Shown here: positions 41,833 through 54,062 of the stretch, one piece after another | How positions within the stretch are numbered: position 1 is the first letter of the stretch | Layout: the number at the start of each line of letters is the position of its first letter | DNA from: an uncultured Bacteroidota bacterium | GTDB taxonomy: Bacteria > Bacteroidota > Bacteroidia > NS11-12g > UBA9320 | NCBI GenBank assembly: GCA_937124965.1 | Contig: CAKZLB010000013.1 | Span: 1-64,000 of the forward strand | Direction: 5' to 3' | DNA: 64,000 nt | Notes under the pieces: model-generated | What the model saw: the letters and a program-made list of their open reading frames with translations, nothing else | The model's database searches: none | What the model was told of the DNA's origin: nothing | Program-made: the position numbers and the translations under genes

Positions 41833-41934
41833 AACGTATCACGAAAAGCATTTACAAGTCAATTTGGCCATACGTTAGTTTTTGCATTACATTACAAATC
41901 CAATAAGATTTGGGGGGATTAGTAAATAATAATT

Positions 41935-42008
41935 GGGGGATTAGCTCAGTTGGCTAGAGCGTTTGACTGGCAGTCAAAAGGCCACCGGTTCGAGCCCGGT
42001 ATTCTCCA
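41935..42008 (+). tRNA. tRNA-Ala (anticodon GGC)
   Basis: The cloverleaf folds by hand: acceptor GGGGGAT / ATTCTCC with the G3-U70 pair that marks tRNA-Ala; D-arm GCTC/GAGC; anticodon stem TTTGA/TCAAA with loop CTGGCAG (anticodon GGC, reading Ala codons GCC and GCT); T-arm ACCGG/CCGGT around TTCGAGC; discriminator A. Only CC of the CCA end is encoded. The 3' half is the attachment site used by the integrated element. Confidence 0.93.
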
Positions 42009-42009
42009 C
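41967..42009 (+). other. attL (tRNA-Ala 3' half)
   Basis: CTGGCAGTCAAAAGGCCACC followed by the T-arm and acceptor end, repeated at 52942-52984. Identical except for two bases in the T-loop/T-stem region (GAGCCC here, GAATCC there), both compatible with tRNA folding. Confidence 0.88.
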
Positions 42010-42029
42010 CCTGACTTTCAACACATTAG

Positions 42030-42057
42030 GCCTCGTAATTTTTATGGGGCTTTTTTG
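42030..42057 (+). terminator. Terminator after tRNA-Ala
   Basis: GCCTCGTAA / TTATGGGGC stem with G-U pairs, a short T loop and a T6 run, 21 bases after the tRNA. It lies on the element side of attL. Confidence 0.65.
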
Positions 42058-42080
42058 TTTGCACGCCATTTGCACGCAAA
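42058..42080 (+). repeat. Left end repeat, two TTTGCACGC motifs
   Basis: A 23-bp sequence made of two TTTGCACGC 9-mers separated by CA and followed by AAA. The identical 23 bp in the same orientation occur at 52816-52838. The position about 50 bp inside attL suggests arm-type binding sites for the tyrosine integrase (inference). Confidence 0.7.
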
Positions 42081-42106
42081 TATAGCTAAATTGACGGCCA
42101 ATCAGT

Positions 42107-42400
42107 TCAAGGCAAAAATTGCTTTGGCAGGTCACGGCTTCCATGCAAAATGCGCACGATAAATGTACGGGTTTTTATGATGCGGTAGAAAATGATGTGA
42201 TTATCCTTTGCAAGGCTGCGCAAGCCTTTTCTGATTTCACTGCGCTCACGCCCTATTTTGGGGTTCTCAGATAAATGCACAAATGACGCTTTAAATTCAA
42301 GCACGTAACTATCAGCTTGGTTTAAACCAAATTCGGCTACTGTGAAATCGTAAATATCTTCTAGATCTTGCTGCGCGCGCTTTGAGAGATCAAATGCCAT
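42107..42400 (-). CDS. parE: RelE/ParE family toxin
   Basis: 97-residue toxin of the RelE/ParE superfamily. The family features are an N-terminal LSKRAQQDLEDIYDFTVAEFG helix region, the NPKIGRERSEIRKGLRSL segment, HIIFYRII and the C-terminal VRILHGSRDLPKQF. ParE-type toxins poison DNA gyrase; RelE-type cut mRNA, and the GSRDLPK tail favours ParE. Its start overlaps the antitoxin stop by one base. The pair has a diverged relative at 53168-53688 beyond the other end of the element. Confidence 0.92.
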   Translation of the reverse strand: MAFDLSKRAQQDLEDIYDFTVAEFGLNQADSYVLEFKASFVHLSENPKIGRERSEIRKGLRSLAKDNHIIFYRIIKTRTFIVRILHGSRDLPKQFLP

Positions 42401-42633
42401 TATGCTTCATGCTCTTTGCGCTTTTTTGCAATAATATCCTCGACGCTCATCGTGCTAATTGGGCTGTCCCAGCCCTTGGCGATTTCACCGCGCAGCTCGT
42501 CAATAATGCGATTACGATATATTTGATGAAGGCGCAACGCATCACGCACCAATTCACTGGCATTTTGATAGTCGCCCGTCTTAATTTGTGTGGCGATATA
42601 TTTTTCTTGTTTCTCTGTTAGGCTAACATTCAT
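42400..42633 (-). CDS. parD: ParD-like antitoxin
   Basis: 77-residue ribbon-helix-helix antitoxin preceding its toxin. MNVSLTEKQEKYIATQIKTG forms the DNA-binding strand and helix, YQNASELVRDALRLHQ the second helix, and the tail WDSPISTMSVEDI should wrap the toxin. An AGAGG Shine-Dalgarno-like sequence lies eight bases before the ATG. The module likely stabilises the element and autoregulates at the upstream promoter. It is about 88 percent identical by hand count (9 differences in 77) to the second ParD at 53455-53688. Confidence 0.92.
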   Translation of the reverse strand: MNVSLTEKQEKYIATQIKTGDYQNASELVRDALRLHQIYRNRIIDELRGEIAKGWDSPISTMSVEDIIAKKRKEHEA

Positions 42634-42663
42634 GGCGTACCTCTTTGAATATTTCTGTTTCTA

Positions 42664-42694
42664 CAAAGATAACATTATTGGCCATATTTAGCAA
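42664..42694 (-). promoter_or_regulatory. Promoter of parDE copy 1
   Basis: On the minus strand TTG and TATCTTTG are separated by 20 bases, a full match to the Bacteroidota promoter, 30 bases upstream of parD. The same architecture stands before parDE copy 2. Confidence 0.72.
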
Positions 42695-42815
42695 ATACGG
42701 ACATTCAGCTGCATTGACGGGATGTCTGTTACCCAAAACTAAAAATACGTCTTAATTAAAAAACACCTCAAAAAAGCCCCCACATAGCTGATTGAAGAGG
42801 TTTTTATAATTCAGG

Positions 42816-43829
42816 CTAAACATTATAATCAAAGCATGGCGGTGGAATAGGGTGCTGGTTATTAGAAGCCGAAGCTTGTGAGTTTTTGAATATTCTAACC
42901 AATGAAGGGTTTGAGTGTTCTTGCAATATGGGCTTTGATGAAGCCGTGAACTGGCCGTTCATCCTTGATTTGTCCTTCTTTGCTTTAACCGCGCTCACAA
43001 TTTCATTCGCCATGGGTAATTCCCCAATATTTTTGAGCTTCTGCCGAATATCTTTAGCGCGCTGCTTTTTTAACTGTCTGGATAATGAATTAATTTTCCC
43101 CTGACCATCCACCAGCACAAACCCGCGCCTGTCACCATTGCACAGCCTATAGCCGATTTGCGCAAGGGCAGAGTTGAACGCTTTGCCGCTATCAGAGGCA
43201 CGGTAAAGCCGTTCAATCTCCGCAGCGTCTTCGGCCTGTTGCTCGCGATGTTTGACAAGGCCGAGCGTGCGCCCAGCTTTGGCCTCTCTCCTGCGCCGCG
43301 CATTATTCACAGCACGTTGCTTGCACAGAACTTTTCCGTCATTACGCTCAAATTTTTCAGCCCAATTTGAAAGCGTAATTCGATCATATGACGGCACCGC
43401 CATAATCCCCGTTTCGGGATGAACAAGATTGCAGATGACATGGCAGTGCTGGTGGGCCGTATCGCCAATATGCGCCACAATAACGGCCTCATGCTCATCA
43501 AGGCGCAGCAACCGCAAGGCCCCCATAGCGGCTTGCAGCATCGTATTTTTATCGGGGTTTTGCGTTGGGTGCCATGACAGGCTGAAGCTATAAACCGCGC
43601 CTGTCGTTGCTTTGCGTCCCGTTAAAACCTGCCTAGTGTCGATTTTCAGCCGCTGTGCATGCAGGGCCGTAAACGCCATCCAGCGCATTGCGCGATGGGC
43701 GCAGTCCGTTGGCAAATTAAGCGTGTGGCTCCATGCAACGCGCTGGCTCGTGCTGGCATTTTTATCGAATAAATAATATCGCCCGGCTGAGACAAAGCTG
43801 TGCCCGCGGCGTGCAATGCGGGGAACCAT
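42816..43829 (-). CDS. Relaxase, MOBP-like (MobA/VirD2 family)
   Basis: Predicted DNA relaxase that nicks at oriT and covalently carries the strand during mobilization. In 337 residues the N-terminus has MVPRIARRGHSFVSAGRYYL with candidate nucleophile tyrosines 18/19. The metal-binding histidines are in AHIGDTAHQHCHVICN (His120, 126, 128, 130), followed by HPETG. A basic region (NNARRRREAKAG) and a flexible C-terminal tail follow. It starts right after the mobC stop with no gap, so both are one unit. Base composition is richer in GC than the host. Confidence 0.88.
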   Translation of the reverse strand: MVPRIARRGHSFVSAGRYYLFDKNASTSQRVAWSHTLNLPTDCAHRAMRWMAFTALHAQRLKIDTRQVLTGRKATTGAVYSFSLSWHPTQNPDKNTMLQAAMGALRLLRLDEHEAVIVAHIGDTAHQHCHVICNLVHPETGIMAVPSYDRITLSNWAEKFERNDGKVLCKQRAVNNARRRREAKAGRTLGLVKHREQQAEDAAEIERLYRASDSGKAFNSALAQIGYRLCNGDRRGFVLVDGQGKINSLSRQLKKQRAKDIRQKLKNIGELPMANEIVSAVKAKKDKSRMNGQFTASSKPILQEHSNPSLVRIFKNSQASASNNQHPIPPPCFDYNV

Positions 43830-44174
43830 TTATTCTTCCATGAGGTTTGAGGTGAGGGCGTCTATTCTTTCGCACAAAACCACAAGATCAAGCGGTGTGT
43901 GCTTGCCTGTTGCATTCAGCTTGCGGGCAATCTGGTTCAAATTTGTGCCGATCTTCTTAAGCTGAAAAATCAGAGGCGCGTCAACGGCTTGGTGCGCCAC
44001 AATGATTTTTCCGTGCAGGCCAAGCGCGCGCAAATATACACTGGTGGACATGCCAGTACGCTTTGCGCGGCTGGTGATCGTGGATTTTTCGCTGCGGCTA
44101 CAGCGTATATTAATAACGCAGGCTTGCGCCGAACGAGAATATGTTTTGAACTTATGGCGCGAAAATGGCGGCAT
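43830..44174 (-). CDS. mobC: MobC-like relaxosome accessory protein
   Basis: 114 residues from ATG 44174. MobC proteins bind near oriT and help melt the DNA for the relaxase. Visible features are RCSRSEKSTITSRAKRTGMSTSVYLRALGL (ribbon-helix-helix-like) and LIFQLKKIGTNLNQIARKLNA, the family signature. The ATG at 44174 is preceded by a strong GAAAGGAAGC Shine-Dalgarno six bases upstream; the in-frame ATG at 44189 overlaps that element and is unlikely. Its stop abuts the relaxase start. Confidence 0.85.
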   Translation of the reverse strand: MPPFSRHKFKTYSRSAQACVINIRCSRSEKSTITSRAKRTGMSTSVYLRALGLHGKIIVAHQAVDAPLIFQLKKIGTNLNQIARKLNATGKHTPLDLVVLCERIDALTSNLMEE

Positions 44175-44213
44175 ATAGCTTCCTTTCATTTATGGTGGTT
44201 TGAACTCTGATTT

Positions 44214-44295
44214 TTTGACCCTACGCAAGCCGGGTCAAAGGGGGTGCACGGGGGAATTCTTCCCCCTGCCAAGATCGTTTTTGTATATACAAAAA
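44214..44295. other. Candidate origin of transfer (oriT)
   Basis: Three inverted repeats are packed upstream of mobC: TTTGACCC / GGGTCAAA (44214-44239, ten-base loop), GGGGGAATTCTTCCCCC (44250-44266), and the 18-bp palindrome TTTTTGTATATACAAAAA (44278-44295). Hairpins next to a mobC-relaxase pair are typical of oriT. The nick site cannot be placed; GGGGTGCAC between the first two hairpins is the nearest thing to a core. Confidence 0.5.
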
Positions 44296-44398
44296 CATAT
44301 CTTGCTACTCTTAGTTATTTTTGATTTTTATCTTTTGATCATTTGGGTCAGGTGCACCAGTTTGCATCGTCAATGCACTGCAGTTTTGTGCCAGCGCA

Positions 44399-44487
44399 AT
44401 GACGATTGAAAATCGCTACTGTTATGATGCATTGTCCTCAAAGTTTTCGAGATGTGGGTTTTGGGAGAGTGCTATAACGGCCTTGCG
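44399..44487 (+). repeat. 88-bp direct repeat, left copy
   Basis: Runs from ATGACGATTGAAAATCGC to GGCCTTGCG and covers the last 22 codons of the serine recombinase gene plus 23 bases beyond. The near-identical right copy is at 47361-47448 (two substitutions and one single-base indel). Together they bracket the recombinase cassette. Confidence 0.92.
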
Positions 44488-46056
44488 CAATAACTCATTG
44501 GTTCGCAAACAATCCACCAACTCGCGCCATTCTTCTAAGCTTCTTTTTTGTGGGAATAAATCGAAGGGAGTGTTTAATGAATACAACAACTTACCCCCTT
44601 TCATCTCTAGGTTCGCAAAGACGAAGTTCACTAATCGACGTTTTTGGGGGATGGTCGAACCTTTGAAGAGCTCTGATGATTTAGAGGCGATGTTTAGTAG
44701 ATTAATAAACGCATCATTAAACCCGTCATTCCCGGCTCTGTGCGCTTTTATCTGCACATTTACGTCCCGCAATTCATTTTCTAGATTTAACCGTTTACGG
44801 GCGTAGTCCTCTTCTGATATTACTTTTTCTGCCAATAAATCCATGATGCGGTCAATCTTCGCAATTAAGGCTACATGCCTTTTATGAAGCTCATTAAAAT
44901 GCCTGTTTCTATATTCTCGCTCGATATAAGCGGTGTTTTGAATGTAGGTTTTGACCGCTTCAAATAATTCTTCTGGTAGGTGCAGTTCGTCAATAATGCC
45001 CTTTACCTGTTCCAAAATCTTTTCTTCACGGATGAACATTTTCTTGTCTGGCTGATCTGGATTTGCACAGCGCAGATATGTCCAGCTCGCAGTTTTACCG
45101 TTTTTATAAGTTTTTGTTTTGGTGTCGGCTGTGACCACCTTGCCAGAGGTTGCGCATTTGATTAAGCCTCTAAACACAAATTCCTTTCCAGCATATTTAA
45201 AAGGTTTTTTGTTCCATGATTTCAAAACATCCTGACATTGCTCGAATAATTCTTGCGTGATTAATGGTTCATAAACATGAGGGTAGGGCTTGCCTTTAAC
45301 CTCCATCTGCCCAAAATAAAACGGGTTGGTTAAAATGCGATGGAGATGAGATTTATTTAAAAAAGATTGATTGCCAGATTTGTTGCGCAAACCCCATTCT
45401 GTGCACTCCTTCAGCAGCTCAGGGATTGTGTAGCTTCCTGTAGAGTATTCCTGAAATAATCGCCGCACAAGCAGCCCACGATCTGGATCAATACTAATCC
45501 AGCTTTTACCGTTGGGCTTTTTAACATTTAGATAACCAATCGGGGCTTGGGAAATATACTCCCCTTGCCGAACTTTTTGCTCGATAGAGCGCCTCACATT
45601 GTCCCGCATGGAATCAATGTAGGACTGCGCCATAATCACGCCCATTGACCACATTAGCCGCTCCTGAGAAACAGAATTCTTATGAATGATGTAGTTCTCT
45701 GTATTAAAATGGAGCTCGATTTTACCTTCATTGATCAAAGCATCAAGCAACGGGTGCTCTTTAAATGAGCGTTGCACCCGGTCAACCTTGTCAGCAACCA
45801 AGGCAATGATTTCTTTTTGGCTGCGGATGAATTTAATGACTTCCATAAATTTACGGCGGTCGCCTTGGGTAGAGCTTTCTGTGATGGCGAAAGATTTTAT
45901 GATGTTTAGGTCTTTGCGCTGGCAATAACTTTCAAGGCGGTGGGTTTGTGCGTCAATAGAATAGCCGTCTTCCTGCTCACGTGATGACACACGGGCAAGA
46001 ATAACGGCTCTGCGGGCGCTTAGCTTGTTTGATAAATCATATAGGTTGGACATCAT
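44422..46056 (-). CDS. Large serine recombinase
   Basis: 544-residue site-specific recombinase. The resolvase catalytic domain starts at VILARVSSREQEDGYSIDAQ with the probable nucleophile Ser24, and has VADKVDRVQRS as the conserved Asp/Arg helix. The Recombinase domain follows (about 165-275, with APIGYLN and LHRILTNPFYFGQMEVKG). Then comes a diverged zinc-ribbon-like part without clear cysteine pairs (CATSGKV ... YLRCANP), and a coiled-coil segment (about 370-440). The gene overlaps the small gene upstream by four bases (ATGA), so they are coupled. An 88-bp copy of its 3' end sits beyond the cassette at 47361. It may mobilise its own segment or invert or excise part of the element. Confidence 0.9.
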   Translation of the reverse strand: MMSNLYDLSNKLSARRAVILARVSSREQEDGYSIDAQTHRLESYCQRKDLNIIKSFAITESSTQGDRRKFMEVIKFIRSQKEIIALVADKVDRVQRSFKEHPLLDALINEGKIELHFNTENYIIHKNSVSQERLMWSMGVIMAQSYIDSMRDNVRRSIEQKVRQGEYISQAPIGYLNVKKPNGKSWISIDPDRGLLVRRLFQEYSTGSYTIPELLKECTEWGLRNKSGNQSFLNKSHLHRILTNPFYFGQMEVKGKPYPHVYEPLITQELFEQCQDVLKSWNKKPFKYAGKEFVFRGLIKCATSGKVVTADTKTKTYKNGKTASWTYLRCANPDQPDKKMFIREEKILEQVKGIIDELHLPEELFEAVKTYIQNTAYIEREYRNRHFNELHKRHVALIAKIDRIMDLLAEKVISEEDYARKRLNLENELRDVNVQIKAHRAGNDGFNDAFINLLNIASKSSELFKGSTIPQKRRLVNFVFANLEMKGGKLLYSLNTPFDLFPQKRSLEEWRELVDCLRTNELLRKAVIALSQNPHLENFEDNAS

Positions 46057-46238
46057 TCATTTTCTCCCAGCTCGTTGTTGATTTCAATAAGTATGGTAAA
46101 GAAGCCCACAAGATTTGTGGCGGCTTTACGGGCTTCCAGTAACGATAATGGTGGGTCATATAATGTAGAAATTTGATGGGCTATGCTATTGAATAAGTCT
46201 TCGTTTGATTGGTCTGGTTTGGCGGGGTTTTGTGTCAT
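46053..46238 (-). CDS. Small hypothetical protein coupled to the serine recombinase
   Basis: 61 residues from ATG 46238 (MTQNPAKPDQSNEDLF). Its stop overlaps the recombinase start by four bases. A strong GAAAGGAAGC Shine-Dalgarno six bases upstream decides the start; the longer ORF start at 46262 has none. The sequence is a single amphipathic-helix-rich domain (EDLFNSIAHQISTLY, LLEARKAATNLVGFFTILIEINNEL). Function unknown; it could be a recombination directionality or accessory factor by position. Confidence 0.65.
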   Translation of the reverse strand: MTQNPAKPDQSNEDLFNSIAHQISTLYDPPLSLLEARKAATNLVGFFTILIEINNELGENE

Positions 46239-46720
46239 GTGCTTCCTTTCTGCAATAGACAATGAAAAGCCATCAGGCCATAGGCCTGTGGCTCAATTTG
46301 GGGTGGGTGAAAAAGTTATGAGGCTTTCGCCCCATCAAAAAACAATGACGCTCTCCTGCTATGTGGGAGCGTTCACGCCATTGTTTTTAGGCCTATAATC
46401 GGCAAATTCTTTTATATGTGGTTTGAAGTTGGTTGTGTTTTAGCACGGGTCATTGACATATCTTAAAACTTAAGCGGAGATTGTTAATTGACGAAGTGAA
46501 TTTTAAATTAAAAGCCCTGAAAAGTCAAGGGGCATTGCAGTGGTATGTTTTGCTACAGACATCACGCACTTGGAGCTTCACGTGCATAGCCTTGATCGAT
46601 TTTTATTGTTTTAAAATTCGCTCTGTAATTTGAAAATCATTGTTTTATTTTGTTCAGATTGAAAAGTGTTGCATCCGACATTATGTTTTTAGACAAAATG
46701 CTAAACTTTACTTATCTTTA
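46239..46720. other. Intergenic region with two hairpins
   Basis: No convincing gene. A GCCATCAGGCC / AGGCCTGTGGC imperfect hairpin lies near 46270-46293, and a long hairpin at 46338-46388 pairs AAAAACAATG with CATTGTTTTT and ACGCTC with GAGCGT around an eight-base loop plus a bulge. The second looks like a bidirectional terminator. The rest (46400-46720) is AT-rich; nothing else seen. Confidence 0.5.
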
Positions 46721-47335
46721 TCAATACTGTCTTGCATACAAATGGCCAGCTTTATTTATTCCGCCTATTTGGTCTGGATTTAATGTGGGTAAACTCTTGC
46801 CAAATTTAACCTCAAGCGCCTCAATAATTTTGGGAGCTGCCGCAGTTGGATATTTGTATTTATGGTTGTAACCATCGTTCATATTTACGACCCTCATCAA
46901 TTTAATTTCTTCTCTAAACATGGTTGAGTCCATCTCCCTATCCCAGAGACTGCTGACATCACTAAAGAACAAGAATTCTTGTGAAAGAAAACCAAAGTAT
47001 TTGTCACGCGCATTAATTAATTGCTCATGATTTACTGAAAGTACTTGTTGGCAAGGAGCTAGTTGAATGTCACAATCTGTTAATTCCGGGCCAACCGTCA
47101 AACCGATAATGCTCTTATTGCTTAGATGTATATGTTTCATGTCGAATGCTTCATTAGCTATTTCACGTAATAAAAAGCTTGAAATTCTGAAGGAGTCCTC
47201 AAAATTCTTGTAGTCAATTGCTTGCAATTTATTAATCTCCTTATTCCATTTATAGCTATATAATTTTAACATATGACGGAATTGAGGCGCGTTGTCAATA
47301 AAATTAATATGGTAGAAATTGTAAAAGAATGACAA
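46721..47335 (-). CDS. Orphan hypothetical protein
   Basis: 204 residues, no family recognised. No signal peptide or membrane helix. It is rich in aromatic residues at the start (MSFFYNFYHINF), with LKLYSYKWNKEINKLQAIDY, a central SNKSIIGLTVGPELTDC segment and a C-terminal SLPTLNPDQIGGINKAGHLY. The composition is much more AT-rich than the recombinase next to it, so it may have a different origin. It lies inside the segment bracketed by the 88-bp repeats and ends 482 bases from the small coupled gene. It may be cargo such as a defence or regulatory protein, but nothing specific supports that. Confidence 0.6.
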   Translation of the reverse strand: MSFFYNFYHINFIDNAPQFRHMLKLYSYKWNKEINKLQAIDYKNFEDSFRISSFLLREIANEAFDMKHIHLSNKSIIGLTVGPELTDCDIQLAPCQQVLSVNHEQLINARDKYFGFLSQEFLFFSDVSSLWDREMDSTMFREEIKLMRVVNMNDGYNHKYKYPTAAAPKIIEALEVKFGKSLPTLNPDQIGGINKAGHLYARQY

Positions 47336-47360
47336 AAGGGCTTTGTTTTTAACTTTTACT

Positions 47361-47448
47361 ATGACGATTGAAAATCGCCACTGTTATGATGCATTGTCCT
47401 CAAAGTTTTCGAGATGTGGGTTTCGGAGAGTGCTATAACGGCCTTGCG
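47361..47448 (+). repeat. 88-bp direct repeat, right copy
   Basis: Copy of 44399-44487 in the same orientation. It includes the last codons of the serine recombinase gene but is followed by unrelated sequence, so it is a truncated duplicate. One single-base deletion and two substitutions separate the copies. Confidence 0.92.
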
Positions 47449-47499
47449 GGCGAGAGCTGTGTTTGGGCACATTCACACTCTTCCTCAGGGACTGACAAT

Positions 47500-47757
47500 T
47501 CATCGTGCGGCTAGCATACTTCGCGGGCGAACATAAATAGCTCCTCCATCATGGGTTAAGACCATATTCGATGCATACAGCAATCTTCCTTCTTCAGAGG
47601 AGGGGCTAGAAGAATCGTCGACATTGCATAGCCGCATGTCTCCTGAGCGGCGGCAGGAAACAATCGATATGTATACGCGATGCTCAGGTCGAGATCTTAC
47701 TCCACCTCCGCTATGTGGAACAGCTGGATCATAGATAGAATACATCAAAATTCCCAT
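47500..47757 (-). CDS. Doubtful small ORF
   Basis: 85-codon ORF divergent from the helicase gene, rich in Arg and Ser (VYISIVSCRRSGDMRLCNVDDSSSPSSEE). No family recognised, no Shine-Dalgarno and no signal peptide. It occupies most of the 350-base gap between the 88-bp repeat and the helicase gene. It could be a small regulator of the helicase gene or chance coding; I cannot decide. Confidence 0.25.
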   Translation of the reverse strand: MGILMYSIYDPAVPHSGGGVRSRPEHRVYISIVSCRRSGDMRLCNVDDSSSPSSEEGRLLYASNMVLTHDGGAIYVRPRSMLAAR

Positions 47758-47763
47758 AATGCA

Positions 47764-47792
47764 TTGACTTTGTTATGGATGCGCGTTAAAAC
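47764..47792 (+). promoter_or_regulatory. Sigma70-like promoter before the helicase gene
   Basis: TTGACT and TAAAAC are separated by 17 bases, resembling a proteobacterial -35/-10 pair rather than the host TTG/TAnnTTTG type. The -10 ends six bases before the ATG at 47799, implying a very short or absent leader. Confidence 0.35.
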
Positions 47793-47798
47793 ACCTTC

Positions 47799-50700
47799 AT
47801 GCAAAAAGAGCGTGTGTTTCATTATATCAAACAGGCTGTAGATGAGCTTGTTGAGCAGGACAGATTTGATACGGGTGATGAGTTTAGGCTAACTCAACGC
47901 CAAGCTCTGCACGACTATGCTGAAGACCTAGTTGATGACACTCTAAGTTTAAATGAAAAACTTACCGGGTTCTTTGAAATTCCTACTGGTATTGGTAAAA
48001 CAGCCCTGTTTCTCTCGATAATCGGCAAAGCTCATCATGCTGCAAAAGCCAATGGTGAAGAAATGCGCTCTGTCATTGTCGTGCCCCGCACCAAAATTAT
48101 GCGTGATACGTATAATAAGGATGCCAAAAAGTTTATACCTGATTTGATTGATGATATTGGTCGGCATGGTGATGGGCATAAAGAAAAAGACAAGCCCATT
48201 ATGCTGATGACCTATAGAGCTTTTGAAAAACTGACAAAGTCATATGAGCTGGGGCCTGAGAATGTTGATCTGTTGGCTACAGATGAATCACACCGCGGTA
48301 TCTCTGAAAATATGACCGACAATGTAGTTAGTGCTTATCAGGATACGGATACTGCTTTGTTGGGCTTTACGGCATCTTCTGAATTTGATGATGCAAGATC
48401 TGTCTATAACACTCATCGCCGCGCTATTTATGAGAAAAAAATCGGTCAGGCCGTTCGGGAGGGCGAGCAGCTCGCAGAATATATCCAAACCCAGAATTAT
48501 ATTATTCGCGTTGAGCCACAAGACTTGAAAGAGCTGCAGAAAACCTTTTATGCGGTTGCGCTCAGTGATACCGACTACAAAACACGCATGAAGCAAGCGG
48601 CGTGGAATAAAGCGATGATACGCGTATTGCGTGATGGTCGTGATGAGCGCACGAAAGAACCCTTAACGGACAATCAAGGAGGATTATACGTACAAGATAC
48701 AACGCATGCAGATGTGCTGGAAACACAGTTAAATGCTGATCCTGTTTTAGCACAAAGAGCAGCCGCACAAGGCTATAAAAAAATGGCTGTAGCCATTCAT
48801 TCTCATAGAAGTAAGGCCGCAAACAGACAGGCTTTCAAGGATTATGAGGCTGGCAAAATCTTGATGATTGTAGGCGATGATATGTTCAAAGAAGGGTATG
48901 ATTACCCGCCAATGAAAACCGTGCTTGATTATCAGCGCGGCTCTCTGGTGGATAAAGTTCAGATTTTGGGACGCGGCGCGCGTCGCTGGTTTAATGAGCG
49001 CAAGGATCGATATGAAGGCCTTACATTCATCGACAGCATTATCTATATCGGTTCGGATGATGACAAAATTGATTTGCAACGTGAGACCAGAGCTAGACGA
49101 AATGCTGTTACGGCGAGAGATGTTATGAATGGTGAGGCTTATGTTTTAAGTCCGAAAGAAGCTAAAAAGGAAGAAGCGCTCAAAGAAAAAGATCTGACAT
49201 ACAAACGCGGTAAAGTCATTTTCCCAGACGATGACAATATCAAGGAATATACAGACCTTGAGGCTCTTGAGACATTTTCAAGTGAGCAGGGGGAATTTAA
49301 AAAAGATAGATTTAAGGGATATGAGCCTATACCAGAAGAGGATTTAGCTTTTCTAAGGTCCGAGGCAGAACGCACAGGTCTTGGGGGAAGCGCCATATTT
49401 AGCACAACCAACCTCTGGCCAAATGGTTTGACTGGAAGTCATGCCGCAGACGTTGTTCATGGCGACAACAAAACTTCCCGCCCCATATGGATTGGTGCAC
49501 TTAAAGCCACCTACATTATACAACCTGATAGTGAAAATGAGCCTATATCAGAAGAAGATTTAGCTTTCCTAAAGTCCGCGGCAGAACGCACAGGGGTCGG
49601 CGGGAAAATCATATTTAAATCTATCACAACTCCACCCACAGGACTTAATAAAGAAAATGCGTATGCTTTAGTTGCTGGAAAGAGGAAAAACGCTCCACCA
49701 TCATGGATTAAAGCACTAAAAGAAGCTTACCTTCTGCTACCTGATGCCAAAACGAAAAAACCTATATCTAAGGGAGATTTAGAATTCTTACAAAGTGAAG
49801 TTACACGAACAGGTTTAACAGGAGGCGCTATCTTCAAGATGATAAAGGATCCTCCAGAAGGATTTGACGGGAGAATTTCAGGCAACGTTGTTCGTGGTGT
49901 ACGAAAATACCTTCATCCATTATGGGTTAAAACATTAAAGAAAGCTTATCGGAAACAGCCCACTTCCAATTTAAAAAAAGTAAAGCAAGAACCCATATCT
50001 AAAGAAGACTTCGCTTTCCTGAAATCCGAAGCAGAGCGCACAGGGTTGAAGGGGGCTGAGGTATTTAACCGAATGAAAAAACGGCCAGAAGGCATGACAA
50101 AAAGGCATGCCGCAAGTATTCAAAGTGGCGAAAAACATGCCGCCCCACCTAGCTTCACACAAGCCTTAAAGGTAGGCTATAAAAATCAACTAGATAAGAT
50201 AATAAAATATAAACCAATTTCATACGCTGAGTGGAAATTCTTGAGATCTGAAGTTGACCGCACGCGCCTAAATGGAGCCGCTGCTTTTAATTTAATAGAA
50301 CATTCACCAGAAGGCATGACAAAATTTGATGCCAATGACATTATAGTTCACCAAAAAGCTAAGCCTTCTGCCTTTATAAAGGCTTTGAAAGAAATTTACG
50401 CGAAACAACCGGATGCCACACCTAAGCCAAGACCCAAATTAGAACTGATTTCTGAAGAGGACCGTGCTTTCCTAAAATCCGAAGCTAAACGAACAGGTTT
50501 AGGGGGAAGAGGTATCTTTTATTATATAGAAACTGCTCCATACAATATGACACCTAGATATGCAGAAAAGATTCTAAAAGGGCAGAAATCTGCTCCACTG
50601 TCATATGTAGACACACTCAAAAAAGCGTACAAAGAACAGCCAAATGCAAAGAAAGGGCCCAAATTAGAGCTTATTTCTGAAGAAGACCGTACTTTTTTGA

Positions 50701-51161
50701 AATTAGAGGTTCAGCGGACAGGATTAAGGCCCCACACTATCTTCAATTATATAGAAGAACTTCCGGAAGGTATGACAAAAAGATACATAAGCCACATTAT
50801 AGATGACGATAAAAAATATGCACCGCCTTCATATATTATCGCACTAAAGGTTGTCTATCAAAAACAACTTGATGCAAAACCGCAAGAGCCAAAGCCAAAA
50901 CCAGAACCTATTTCTCAAGAAGATCTTGCTTTTCTTAAGTCCGAATCCAAGCGAACAAGTTTATCCGGTTATGTTCTCTTCAATCGTATTGCACACCCAC
51001 CGCAAGGCATGACTCAGAGCCAAGCCAATAAAATTGTTGCGGGTAATAGGAAATCTGCACCGCCTTTGTATGTAGAAGCACTGAAAAATAGCTTCTTGCA
51101 ACAACCAGACAAAAAACCATCAAGCAATAATCAACTACCGCCAGACGAATTGGGTATGTAG
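47799..51161 (+). CDS. SF2 helicase with C-terminal tandem HTH-like module array
   Basis: 1120 residues in two parts. Residues 1-500 are an SF2 DEAD/DEAH-type helicase: Walker A PTGIGKT (62-68), motif II DESH (162-165), motif III GFTAS (189-193), and motif VI QILGRGARR (388-396) are all intact, like the ResIII/type I restriction motor class. No nuclease or methylase motif is visible. Residues 509-1107 are eight tandem modules of about 70-80 residues. Each runs P-I-S-x-E-D-x-x-F-L-(K/R)-S-E, then R-T-G-L and I-F, then P-E-G-M-T, A-x-x-I, APPS(Y/W)(I/V)xALK and Y-x-x-Q. The pattern fits a helical DNA-binding fold, and Lys/Pro-rich linkers separate several modules. Function is unknown. DNA translocation or unwinding guided by the array is the best inference; defence or element replication are both possible. 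No Shine-Dalgarno is present. Confidence 0.88.
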   Translation: MQKERVFHYIKQAVDELVEQDRFDTGDEFRLTQRQALHDYAEDLVDDTLSLNEKLTGFFEIPTGIGKTALFLSIIGKAHHAAKANGEEMRSVIVVPRTKIMRDTYNKDAKKFIPDLIDDIGRHGDGHKEKDKPIMLMTYRAFEKLTKSYELGPENVDLLATDESHRGISENMTDNVVSAYQDTDTALLGFTASSEFDDARSVYNTHRRAIYEKKIGQAVREGEQLAEYIQTQNYIIRVEPQDLKELQKTFYAVALSDTDYKTRMKQAAWNKAMIRVLRDGRDERTKEPLTDNQGGLYVQDTTHADVLETQLNADPVLAQRAAAQGYKKMAVAIHSHRSKAANRQAFKDYEAGKILMIVGDDMFKEGYDYPPMKTVLDYQRGSLVDKVQILGRGARRWFNERKDRYEGLTFIDSIIYIGSDDDKIDLQRETRARRNAVTARDVMNGEAYVLSPKEAKKEEALKEKDLTYKRGKVIFPDDDNIKEYTDLEALETFSSEQGEFKKDRFKGYEPIPEEDLAFLRSEAERTGLGGSAIFSTTNLWPNGLTGSHAADVVHGDNKTSRPIWIGALKATYIIQPDSENEPISEEDLAFLKSAAERTGVGGKIIFKSITTPPTGLNKENAYALVAGKRKNAPPSWIKALKEAYLLLPDAKTKKPISKGDLEFLQSEVTRTGLTGGAIFKMIKDPPEGFDGRISGNVVRGVRKYLHPLWVKTLKKAYRKQPTSNLKKVKQEPISKEDFAFLKSEAERTGLKGAEVFNRMKKRPEGMTKRHAASIQSGEKHAAPPSFTQALKVGYKNQLDKIIKYKPISYAEWKFLRSEVDRTRLNGAAAFNLIEHSPEGMTKFDANDIIVHQKAKPSAFIKALKEIYAKQPDATPKPRPKLELISEEDRAFLKSEAKRTGLGGRGIFYYIETAPYNMTPRYAEKILKGQKSAPLSYVDTLKKAYKEQPNAKKGPKLELISEEDRTFLKLEVQRTGLRPHTIFNYIEELPEGMTKRYISHIIDDDKKYAPPSYIIALKVVYQKQLDAKPQEPKPKPEPISQEDLAFLKSESKRTSLSGYVLFNRIAHPPQGMTQSQANKIVAGNRKSAPPLYVEALKNSFLQQPDKKPSSNNQLPPDELGM
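49323..51120 (+). repeat. Coding array of eight HTH-like modules
   Basis: Eight in-frame repeats of about 220-235 bp within the helicase gene, starting near residues 509, 581, 654 and so on. Core positions are strongly kept (ISxEDxxFLKSE, RTGL, PEGMT, APPSxxxALK), while the residues between RTGL and PEGMT and around the AxxI helix vary from module to module. Codons diverge between modules, so the array is old rather than a recent expansion. A ninth, detached module tail lies at 51498-51577. Confidence 0.9.
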
Positions 51162-51222
51162 ATCGAATTCGTACGGGACCCGAATTAACTCCATAAGTGA
51201 TTGGTGTGTTTCAGATGTGAAA

Positions 51223-51249
51223 AAGGGCAGGTATGATCTGCCCTTAATC
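51223..51249 (+). terminator. Terminator after the helicase gene
   Basis: AAGGGCAG / CTGCCCTT stem with a seven-base loop, 62 bases downstream of the helicase stop. The following T-run is weak. Confidence 0.55.
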
Positions 51250-51357
51250 AAAGATCAAGATACCAGCAACATTTTTAATTATGGCTAAAACTTTAACTTT
51301 TAGTAGCGGTATCTGTGACGTTTCGTAATATAATTTTTGCAGATGATAAATAGAATA

Positions 51358-51509
51358 GGGGCTGTCGTAGATAACCAAGAAAGGTTATCATTATGGTCAT
51401 GCGCAAGAGTCGTTTAAGCACCTACAAACAAGATCGATTAATCGAACATTTTGTGTCGGGATCAACGGCCCGTACAGCGGCAAAGTTGATCAATGTAAGC
51501 AACATGTAG
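51358..51509 (+). mobile_element. IS1595-family insertion sequence remnant (left end)
   Basis: GGGGCTGTCGTAGATAACC at 51358-51376 looks like an IS1595-type terminal repeat. An ORF starting at 51393 reads MVMRKSRLSTYKQDRLIEHF and then HFVSGSTARTAAKLI, the N-terminus of ISXO2-like transposases, but stops after 38 codons at 51507-51509. The remainder of the IS is missing. Family call rests on recalled sequence similarity. Confidence 0.65.
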
Positions 51510-51577
51510 CTAGAATGATTGCAGGCAAGCACAAAAAAGCACCGTTATCTTGGACTAAAGCAATGTTGGATCAATAA
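51498..51577 (+). pseudogene. Detached ninth module tail of the helicase array
   Basis: In a different frame from the transposase remnant the sequence reads QHVARMIAGKHKKAPLSWTK followed by AMLDQ and a stop. This matches the second half of the helicase modules (A-x-x-I-x-x-G-K-x-K-x-APPSWxKALK). It is joined directly to the truncated transposase, so an IS insertion plus deletion probably cut off the end of a longer array or of a second array gene. Confidence 0.75.
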
Positions 51578-51579
51578 AA

Positions 51580-52797
51580 CTATAGCGCCGTAATGTCTTC
51601 ATTTAGTTTATCTACCGCATCGCTGGATAGGCCGTTTAGGTAGATTTGGGTGGTTTTTAGGTTTTGGTGGCCTAGCATTTCTGAGATTGCGGTTACGGGG
51701 ATGCCTTTGTTGTTGGCTAGTGACGCAAAGCTGTGGCGGCTGACATATGAAGTTAGGTTTTCTTCGATGCCGCAGAGTTTTCCGAGTTCTTTTAGCTTTT
51801 TGTTATAGCGCTTTCGCGCCCATTTAATGTCTTTATGCTGTTCAGCGAGATTGTCTCTTTTGACGATTGAGAACACAAAATCCTCGGCTGATTTATTCTT
51901 GGTATAGTCATTAAAAATATCACTGAGCGCCGCATTAATTTTAATGTCGTATTCCTGATGCGTTTTTGAGCGTTGATATTTAACGCGGCCATCGACGATA
52001 TTTTCTATACGCAACAGCGCAATATCTTTAAACGGCATGCCCATCAAATTAAATGATACCTGAAACATGTCCTTTGCAAATCGTAGGGGATGAGAGGGCT
52101 CTAGCTCCAAACTAAATATTTTTTTGAGCGCAGCTATATTGATAGCCCGCTTTTTTGTTTTGGTGGTTTTGATGGTGTAATCCTTAAAGGGATAATGCCC
52201 CGCATCAATTATTCCCGCCTTGATGGCACGGTTATAAATGGCGCGAATGGTTTTCATGTACATCGCAAGACTGTTCCAGCCATTGCCCTTTGATAAATGA
52301 TGCGTTTCAAAATCCTGCAAGAATTTTAGATTGATTTGTCTGAACAGCAAATCCTTCTCGCCCACATACCGCTTGACCACCCCCGCAACGGCAGCGTAGG
52401 CATCAGCATTGCCAATACGGTTGGCTTTTCGCAATTCCGTGATTAGGGTTTTTGTGTAGATAAAGAAACTCTTGCTGTTTTGTTGCGGCTGGATTTTTCC
52501 TTTCAACTGCACAACAGACAAAGAATTGAGCGCATCATCTTCGTCCAGTTTGGTGATGATATCGAGCGCTGCGGCTTTCTTTTTATCGAGATAATTATTC
52601 AACCGTGCAACGGATTCCGTGCCGCGATATGACTTTTTGATTTTTCGGTTTTTCTCATCCCAGTCCGTTTTTTGTACGTAATGCCCCGTTTGAATGGTGC
52701 TGGTTTTTCGAAAATGCGACAAGCGTAAAACAATGGGATATGATCCGTCCTTTCTAGCTCTGCGCATATCAAGCGCGATGGTGATACTCGTATTCAT
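51580..52797 (-). CDS. int: Tyrosine recombinase/integrase (Bacteroidota type)
   Basis: Integrase responsible for the tRNA-Ala insertion. 405 residues from ATG 52797 (MNTSITIALDMRRARKDGSY). The N-terminal arm-binding domain (about 1-90, YPIVLRLSHFRKTSTIQTG) and the SAM-like core-binding domain (about 105-205) are typical of Bacteroidota conjugative-transposon integrases. The catalytic domain has SRHSFAS, EMLGHQNLKTTQIYLNG with the nucleophile Tyr. The first catalytic Arg is replaced in NLMGMPFKDIALL, as in many Bacteroidota relatives. The longer ORF start at 52833 reads through the end repeat and is unlikely. The gene lies 144 bases from attR. Confidence 0.93.
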   Translation of the reverse strand: MNTSITIALDMRRARKDGSYPIVLRLSHFRKTSTIQTGHYVQKTDWDEKNRKIKKSYRGTESVARLNNYLDKKKAAALDIITKLDEDDALNSLSVVQLKGKIQPQQNSKSFFIYTKTLITELRKANRIGNADAYAAVAGVVKRYVGEKDLLFRQINLKFLQDFETHHLSKGNGWNSLAMYMKTIRAIYNRAIKAGIIDAGHYPFKDYTIKTTKTKKRAINIAALKKIFSLELEPSHPLRFAKDMFQVSFNLMGMPFKDIALLRIENIVDGRVKYQRSKTHQEYDIKINAALSDIFNDYTKNKSAEDFVFSIVKRDNLAEQHKDIKWARKRYNKKLKELGKLCGIEENLTSYVSRHSFASLANNKGIPVTAISEMLGHQNLKTTQIYLNGLSSDAVDKLNEDITAL

Positions 52798-52815
52798 CCA
52801 TTTAATCGTTTTATA

Positions 52816-52838
52816 TTTGCACGCCATTTGCACGCAAA
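52816..52838 (+). repeat. Right end repeat, two TTTGCACGC motifs
   Basis: Identical to 42058-42080 in the same orientation and about 100 bp inside attR, overlapping the longer possible integrase start. Candidate integrase arm-type site or autoregulatory operator. Confidence 0.7.
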
Positions 52839-52941
52839 CTTTGAGTTTATATGTATTGATATGATGCTATATGATGAGTAAAGCCCTGATAATCAACTTA
52901 ACAAACATCATATGATTTCATTTAATATCAAAATTTTTCGT

Positions 52942-52984
52942 CTGGCAGTCAAAAGGCCACCGGTTCGAATCCGGTATTCTCCAC
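52942..52984 (+). other. attR (tRNA-Ala 3' half duplicate)
   Basis: 43-bp copy of the anticodon-loop to acceptor part of tRNA-Ala with two differences from attL. It is not a complete tRNA; the upstream sequence is unrelated. Confidence 0.88.
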
Positions 52985-53167: not shown

Positions 53168-53455
53168 TTAAAAGTGCTGCGGTAAATCCCGACTTCCATG
53201 CATGATTCGCACAACGCGCAATCGGTATTTAATGATGCGGTAAAAAATAATATGATTATCCTTGGTGATGCTGTATAATCCTCTTTTGATTTCGTTTCGC
53301 GCACGACCTATTTGGGGATTCTTAGACAACAGCTCAAATGAATTTTTAAACTCAAGTAAATAACTATCTGCCTGGTTTAATCCGAACATAGCAACTGTAT
53401 AATCGTAAATATCTTCAAGATCCTTTTCAGCGCTCGTGGAAAGTTCATACGGCAT
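53168..53455 (-). CDS. RelE/ParE family toxin, second copy
   Basis: 95-residue paralog of the toxin at 42107-42400. It has the same layout: DLEDIYDYTVAMFGLNQADSY, NPQIGRARNEIKRGLYSI, DNHIIFYRII, and the VRIMHGSRDLPQHF end. It is considerably more diverged from copy 1 than the antitoxins are from each other. It lies outside attR, so it is a remnant of a separate insertion or of chromosomal origin. Stop and antitoxin junction as in copy 1. Confidence 0.92.
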   Translation of the reverse strand: MPYELSTSAEKDLEDIYDYTVAMFGLNQADSYLLEFKNSFELLSKNPQIGRARNEIKRGLYSITKDNHIIFYRIIKYRLRVVRIMHGSRDLPQHF

Positions 53456-53688
53456 TACCCCTCGTGTTCTTTTCGTTTTTTCGTAATTATATCTTCGACA
53501 CTCATTTTACTAACTGGGCCATCCCACCCTTTGACTATTTCACCACGCAGTTCGCCAATAATGCGATTGCGATATATTTGGTGCAAACGCAGCGCATCAC
53601 GTACTAATTCACTGGCATTTTGATAGTCGCCAGTTTCAATTTGTGAGGCGATATATTTTTCTTGTTTCTCTGTTAGACTGACATTCAT
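53455..53688 (-). CDS. ParD-like antitoxin, second copy
   Basis: 77-residue ribbon-helix-helix antitoxin with nine substitutions relative to copy 1 (for example YIASQIETG, GELRGEIVKG, KMSVEDIIT). It overlaps the toxin by one base. The high antitoxin conservation against lower toxin conservation raises the possibility of cross-neutralisation between the two modules, in which the outside copy could act as an anti-addiction module. Confidence 0.92.
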   Translation of the reverse strand: MNVSLTEKQEKYIASQIETGDYQNASELVRDALRLHQIYRNRIIGELRGEIVKGWDGPVSKMSVEDIITKKRKEHEG

Positions 53689-54062
53689 GGCGTTTCTCTC
53701 TATAATTTATCCTTCACCAAAGATAACCAACATTGTCCATATTTAGCAAATACAGACAAATATCTATGACATCCAATCGAACTTCAAGGTGTACTTGGTA
53801 GTTAAAATCAATTAGTAAAATTGCACCATCTATTAAATGTTAAGGCACAGCATACCTTTCAGTGATTCATTCAACCTTATTAATTGGCAATCGATTACCC
53901 TCTTGTTATAAATTCATTATCAAGCGCGTACAGTTCCTATACTAGCTTGAGGTATTTAAAACCTAAAATCAAAAGAGTACAATACCAAACGTTCGGATGA
54001 CGAAGAATGACAGATAAATATTAAGTATAATAAACTCTTAGAAAAAAGGTAAATTTAAACCT
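53689..54062. other. Junction region between element remnant and host
   Basis: 374 bases. The first ~70 resemble the region upstream of parD copy 1 and hold the promoter. From about 53760 the sequence is AT-rich with no gene, RNA or repeat recognised; the right limit of imported DNA lies somewhere here. Confidence 0.5.
53718..53749 (-). promoter_or_regulatory. Promoter of parDE copy 2
   Basis: Minus-strand TTG and TATCTTTG separated by 21 bases, matching the Bacteroidota promoter and mirroring the promoter before copy 1. The shared segment with TGTCCATATTTAGCAAATAC may include the ParD operator. Confidence 0.7.

Follow-up and report, generated by a model that had tools for sequence, protein, structure and literature searches.

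What does a superfamily 2 (SF2) helicase that ends in a long array of small repeated modules do for the mobile element that carries it, or for the host? We addressed this question for an open reading frame of an uncultured Bacteroidota bacterium, located at 47799-51161 on the plus strand of the window (the whole 64,000-nucleotide stretch of DNA that was analyzed), which has an ATG start and zero internal stops. A sequence-only reading had described an SF2 helicase followed by eight in-frame modules of about 75 residues; the motifs lie where they had been placed, and a module HMM recovers all eight modules at E values of 1e-31 to 1e-34 in a whole-genome search. Our preferred answer, to which we assign a probability of roughly 0.4, is that the protein is a DNA translocase whose address is set by an evolvable array of helix-turn-helix (HTH) modules, and that it acts on its own against other mobile DNA. 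The gene and its helicase core are organized as follows.

47799..51161, plus strand, intact ORF of 1120 aa: SF2 helicase core, linker and eight-module array
47799..49238, plus strand, SF2 (ResIII/XPB-like) helicase core, aa 1 to about 480 (Pfam, alignment of the cores of seven relatives)
47982-48002, plus strand, helicase motif I, PTGIGKT, aa 62-68
48282-48293, plus strand, helicase motif II, DESH, aa 162-165
48363-48377, plus strand, helicase motif III, GFTAS, aa 189-193
48960-48986, plus strand, helicase motif VI, QILGRGARR, aa 388-396

The Walker A, DEx(H), SAT-like and QxxGRxxR motifs are all present, together with Pfam matches to ResIII (E 2.2e-17) and DEAD (2.1e-7) and a Helicase_C match below the cut-off (E 0.001). 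With a profile of seven family cores, the nearest solved structures included XPBII (E 2e-13) and a type I restriction R subunit (3e-11). XPBII and type I R subunits are double-stranded DNA motors; as an SF2 motor of the ResIII/XPB/type I-R kind, the core probably translocates on double-stranded DNA. Between the window gene and its copy in the alphaproteobacterial genome G353, pN of the core is 0.21 and pS is saturated; the core is under strong purifying selection. As had been proposed from the sequence, no nuclease or methylase domain was matched in the protein by Pfam, PADLOC and other profile searches, and the neighboring ORFs include no nuclease, methylase or specificity partner. PADLOC 2.0.0 matched generic helicase-core parts only, with no full-length system protein and partners, and no defense genes adjoin the gene.

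The tail of the protein, aa ~510-1105, consists of modules that start at aa 510, 582, 655, 732, 806, 883, 958 and 1037, with a spacing of 72-79 aa. All eight were located by reading frame, alignment and the module HMM; module 4 is the one used for the structural model described below.

49326..49532, plus strand, module 1
49542..49751, plus strand, module 2
49761..49967, plus strand, module 3
49992..50198, plus strand, module 4 (the structure-modeled one)
50214..50417, plus strand, module 5
50445..50651, plus strand, module 6
50670..50879, plus strand, module 7
50907..51116, plus strand, module 8

The modules align over 70 columns, of which I2, F9, L10, R16, T17, F25, P32, L59 and K60 are invariant, and the eight-module pattern is far beyond chance. 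The strict core that had been claimed holds for its R-T, F, P and L-K positions, and fails for the 'PEGMT' string, which occurs in only 3 of the 8 modules. The linkers between modules are short and partly proline/lysine-rich (e.g., PDATPKPRPKLEL and DAKPQEPKPKPEP), a composition that suggests a beads-on-string arrangement, and the array has a net charge of +27. No model in Pfam, NCBIfam, PHROG or PADLOC describes the modules, and a published description of the helicase-module family was not found in open-access text, in line with the proposal that the family is undescribed. Two broken pieces of module sequence flank the gene.

47423..47599, plus strand, degenerate module fragment, remnant of a separate module gene (module HMM E 2.5e-11 at 47423-47596; one TAA)
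51506..51577 (approx.), plus strand, C-terminal fragment of another module, ARMIAGKHKKAPLSWTKAMLDQ-stop (DNA repeat, reading frame)

A short ORF at 51393-51577, abutting the module-gene tail, resembles the N-terminus of an IS1595-type transposase; it has no NCBIfam match.

An element of ~10.97 kb, at 42010-52984, carries the helicase-module gene as cargo. That the gene travels on mobile DNA had been suggested earlier, and the att repeats in a tRNA-Ala gene, mobA/mobC and two recombinases bear this out.

41934..42011, plus strand, tRNA-Ala(GGC), the integration target
41962..42009, plus strand, left att direct repeat, 48 nt, within tRNA-Ala(GGC), 92% identical to the right one
42816..43829, minus strand, relaxase, MobA/VirD2-like (Pfam 2.2e-16)
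43830..44189, minus strand, MobC/NikA-like relaxosome protein (Pfam)
44422..46056, minus strand, large serine recombinase (Resolvase 1e-16, Recombinase 5e-13)
46721..47335, minus strand, hypothetical protein of 204 aa without Pfam match
51580..52833, minus strand, tyrosine integrase at the right end (Arm-DNA-bind_5, Phage_int_SAM_5; Pfam)
52937..52984, plus strand, right att direct repeat, 48 nt

With its integrase, its att repeats at a tRNA gene and its relaxase, this is an integrative mobilizable element; no conjugation genes were seen among the ORFs between 42010 and 52984. The best plasmid matches of the relaxase are mainly proteobacterial. GC content is 0.39-0.52 inside the element and about 0.37 outside. 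A T9SS sorting domain protein is encoded close by, which points to a T9SS-bearing host of Bacteroidota type. A ParD/ParE toxin-antitoxin pair occupies the element's left end (42168-42703). Beyond the right att repeat, at 53223-53758, lies a copy with ~74% identity; the two pairs are spaced 11055 apart, and the second one points to an older element that had inserted at this tRNA-Ala. Copies of a direct repeat of ~90 bp (97%) lie on either side of the serine recombinase and the 204-aa ORF, at 44399-44487 and 47361-47448; the right copy is the 3' end of a recombinase gene fused to a module fragment.

We then turn to the relatives of the gene. The module HMM had no match in the other Bacteroidota genomes of a 296-genome sample, and no module relative was found in plasmid and phage collections or in peptide-pattern scans of viral contigs. 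The alignments A2-A10 used as pattern queries included designed rows that shaped the patterns, and are not counted as evidence. When 85k species were scanned with a degenerate DNA pattern, 104 stretches matched; the only two that score with the module HMM both belong to the metagenome-assembled genome 'Alphaproteobacteria bacterium HKST-UBA31' (G353). Four matches from a DNA pattern scan of viral contigs were dropped since none scored with the module HMM, as were weak Deinococcus and Piscinibacter matches after inspection; a Bosea helicase (25% core identity) had, by eye, no recognizable modules of the window type. Within one alphaproteobacterial order, the core was matched in 9 of 142 genomes (one match weak), and the distribution is scattered. 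The relatives of the window gene are alphaproteobacterial.

The G353 core is 66% identical to that of the window. Its helicase reaches the end of one contig and its modules begin another; as the two ends overlap by 11 nt, the order of helicase and modules appears to be the same, with at least 5 modules, if the contigs join. The search for other helicases with such modules that the sequence-only reading had called for did reveal a family: seven readable relatives have 2-11 tandem modules, delimited by manual cutting, which belong mostly to one divergent superfamily and in one case to an unrelated repeat. G386 (31% identity over 838 aa) has four type A modules, the kind found in the window, and G391 has three near-identical type B modules (about 80-85% identical). 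Five type D modules are found in G441, eleven type E modules in G403, two E-like modules in G417 and six type C modules in G457. The module types are related in a chain-like manner, with hhalign probabilities of 90 for A-B, 92 for B-E and 96 for D-E, and of 1 for A-D and 15 for A-E; types C and F are unrelated to the others. In G390 (L171 7723-9024) a truncated relative has a single type B-like module in frame ahead of its helicase core; the frame stops short of motif VI, and an integrase gene lies nearby. More distant SF2 helicases of two other alphaproteobacterial genomes (G851, G694) have tails made of tandem repeats of two further, undescribed kinds.

L158 6951-9776, distant SF2 helicase ending in six or so repeats
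L159 6689-9763, distant SF2 helicase ending in six or so repeats

The core thus appears to be preserved, whereas the tail differs in module number, in sequence and in one case in kind, and the range of 2-11 modules among the readable relatives suggests that arrays gain and lose units. A tree of the modules of the window, G353 and G386 supports neither independent expansion nor one-to-one orthology.

Several of these genes (G353, G391, G457, G403 and G417) are solitary among housekeeping genes; in G391 the helicase sits between two genes that flank a different gene in the relative G379. Three further genomes have arrays of 3-4 B-kind modules each without a helicase. The array of G452 adjoins a serine recombinase, that of G442 has an integrase-like gene within 4 kb, and that of G421 has a VirD4/TraG-type gene 2 kb away.

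L188 5171-5836, helicase-free tandem array, alphaproteobacterial mobile element, without Pfam match
L189 5199-6137, helicase-free tandem array, alphaproteobacterial mobile element, without Pfam match
L190 4723-5946, helicase-free tandem array, alphaproteobacterial mobile element, without Pfam match

The proximity of these arrays to mobility genes suggests that such modules turn up repeatedly in the mobile DNA of Alphaproteobacteria.

Two alternatives are to be weighed against this genomic setting. The protein could be an initiator whose array binds origin repeats of the element while the motor melts the origin, a role in element replication that the sequence-only reading had also allowed. The herpes simplex virus (HSV) origin-binding protein, which combines an SF2 helicase with a sequence-specific DNA-binding domain at its C-terminus, provides a precedent for this architecture (PMC12543377), and the present element is mobilizable and encodes no recognized replication initiator. 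Nevertheless, no iteron-like tandem repeats were found within the element, and several relatives are solitary chromosomal genes without an adjoining relaxase or integrase; both weaken the replication reading. Module number and sequence also change fast, which is unexpected for a fixed origin, and we regard an initiator as unlikely. We give no more credit to a transcription or DNA-repair remodeler, XPB- or SWI2/SNF2-like, that works at particular chromosomal sites rather than on foreign DNA. XPB-type translocases are closest to the core, some relatives weakly match SWI2_SNF2/SNF2 models, and there are chromosomal singletons beside housekeeping genes; the patchy presence (9 of 142) and the carriage by a mobile element across phyla argue against a core housekeeping role.

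What the modules bind was approached through their predicted fold. Module 4 was modeled with AlphaFold2 using an alignment of 17 natural modules, giving a pLDDT of 90.6 and four helices at 6-19, 23-29, 39-47 and 55-70. The modules had no sequence-profile match to HTH models; the PDB neighbors of the type A module in Foldseek and VIA-align were nearly all lambda-repressor-like or POU-specific DNA-binding domains, with EDF1 and a Red-beta domain also among them. These scores are weak (best Foldseek E 0.6, none under 0.5; VIA Z up to 6.5) and consistent with one another, and agree with the HTH-like character proposed earlier. The type C module of G457, treated identically, had no PDB match with Z of 2 or more, which is not evidence of a new fold. 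The base contacts of the 434 repressor recognition helix, which we take through an alignment of helix 3 to correspond to model positions 39, 40, 43 and 44, allowed the contact columns to be predicted. The alternation of conserved and variable positions noted earlier follows this prediction, in that variable positions fall on the predicted base-contacting residues. In six arrays, which are partly homologous and not fully independent, and with two longer modules left out, the four columns are more variable than column sets drawn at random (p 0.030, 0.030, 0.020, 0.002, 0.006 and 0.017; Fisher 4e-7). They rank 1-6 among 60-71 slid windows of the same spacing (Fisher 5e-5), and three held-out module-only arrays show a weak trend in the same direction (p 0.25, 0.20 and 0.05; combined p 0.06). 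In the G391 modules all four predicted contact positions vary and the adjacent buried ones are constant. A caveat is that exposed residues vary in any repeat family. Moreover, pN is below pS among the three near-identical G391 modules, and this codon comparison, on counts too small for dN/dS, does not show diversifying selection.

These results bear on a third alternative, in which the modules bind protein or RNA instead of DNA, e.g., as a scaffold. HTH-like folds can have other roles, as the EDF1 and Red-beta matches recall; some arrays are not basic (those of G391, G403 and G417 are not positively charged), and the type C repeat of G457 lacks a match to a DNA-binding fold. The structural neighbors of the type A module are, however, nearly all DNA-binding domains and variability concentrates at the predicted DNA-reading positions, so that we find this reading quite improbable. 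Least credible is a functionless passenger, i.e., a transferred alphaproteobacterial gene that is unexpressed in its present host or decaying like the adjacent fragments, since the 3.4-kb frame is open and the window and G353 copies are under strong purifying selection, although the flanking module fragments are broken and the other sampled Bacteroidota are without the gene.

We return to the reading of the protein as a translocase addressed by its array. The tail would be a string of lambda-repressor-like HTH modules on short linkers that docks on DNA through several units, and the modules differ at residues expected to read bases, so the array could form a composite DNA address. Once docked, the ATP-driven motor would move along or remodel the bound DNA, and its translocation would displace replication or transcription complexes or keep a competing plasmid, phage or element from establishing itself. 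As there is neither a nuclease nor a constant partner, a plausible outcome is that bound complexes are displaced or that a competing element meets a roadblock in its replication, transcription or transfer; the protein may work on its own, needing no nuclease beside it, and as cargo would be of benefit to the element or the host. The patchy distribution, solitary genes, mobile carriage and changing arrays fit a role in an arms race. DNA binding, sequence specificity, translocation on double-stranded DNA and a role against mobile elements are what we infer. The address model is weakened by the weak structural scores, the three non-basic arrays and the held-out arrays that show only a trend, and the role against mobile elements by the lack of adjoining defense genes and by PADLOC hits limited to generic helicase parts. 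It is doubtful, in our estimate, whether the family amounts to a new class of protein-only, evolvable DNA-addressing machines coupled to a motor acting on foreign DNA, in which recognition-helix residues change between modules and arrays evolve by gain and loss of units and by their replacement with other kinds of repeat.

Should the arrays read DNA, the family would represent a naturally modular protein in which recognition of a multi-part sequence is linked to an ATP-driven motor, with module sets that have diversified in related bacteria. It would offer a new mechanism of defense or competition that needs neither a nuclease nor a guide RNA, and programmable DNA binding would gain a new scaffold. 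Relatives with 2-11 modules make a recognition code directly testable.

Compared with known systems, the protein shares its helicase core with the SF2 translocases of the ResIII/XPB/type I R-subunit group, as seen with Pfam and in the profile comparison with solved structures. It differs from type I and III restriction subunits in having no nuclease, methylase or specificity subunit and in its C-terminal HTH-like array. HA-repeat (PF03457) helicases have a similar layout, an SF2 helicase with several small helical repeats behind it that presumably bind nucleic acid; PF03457 had no match in the modules or at these loci and none over the cut-off in 13 genomes, in a search without a positive control. 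The four-helix module model has its best structural neighbors in XRE/lambda-repressor-like HTH proteins (HipB, SinR, C proteins) and the POU-specific domain, from which the modules would differ by occurring in 2-11 tandem copies per chain, by a longer loop between helices 2 and 3 and by the missing sequence match to HTH models. The idea of units that share a conserved scaffold and vary at their reading positions recalls TALE and PUF proteins, whereas TALE repeats are 33-35 aa long with a di-residue code and the unit here, as already argued from its length, is not TALE-like, being 72-79 aa, predicted to be a globular HTH and fused to an ATPase. HSV UL9 likewise joins an SF2 motor to a C-terminal sequence-specific DNA-binding region, but it has one C-terminal domain and is a viral replication initiator, whereas the window family has a variable tandem array (PMC12543377). 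In essence, the gene represents a new family within the SF2 helicases with tandem nucleic-acid-binding tails.
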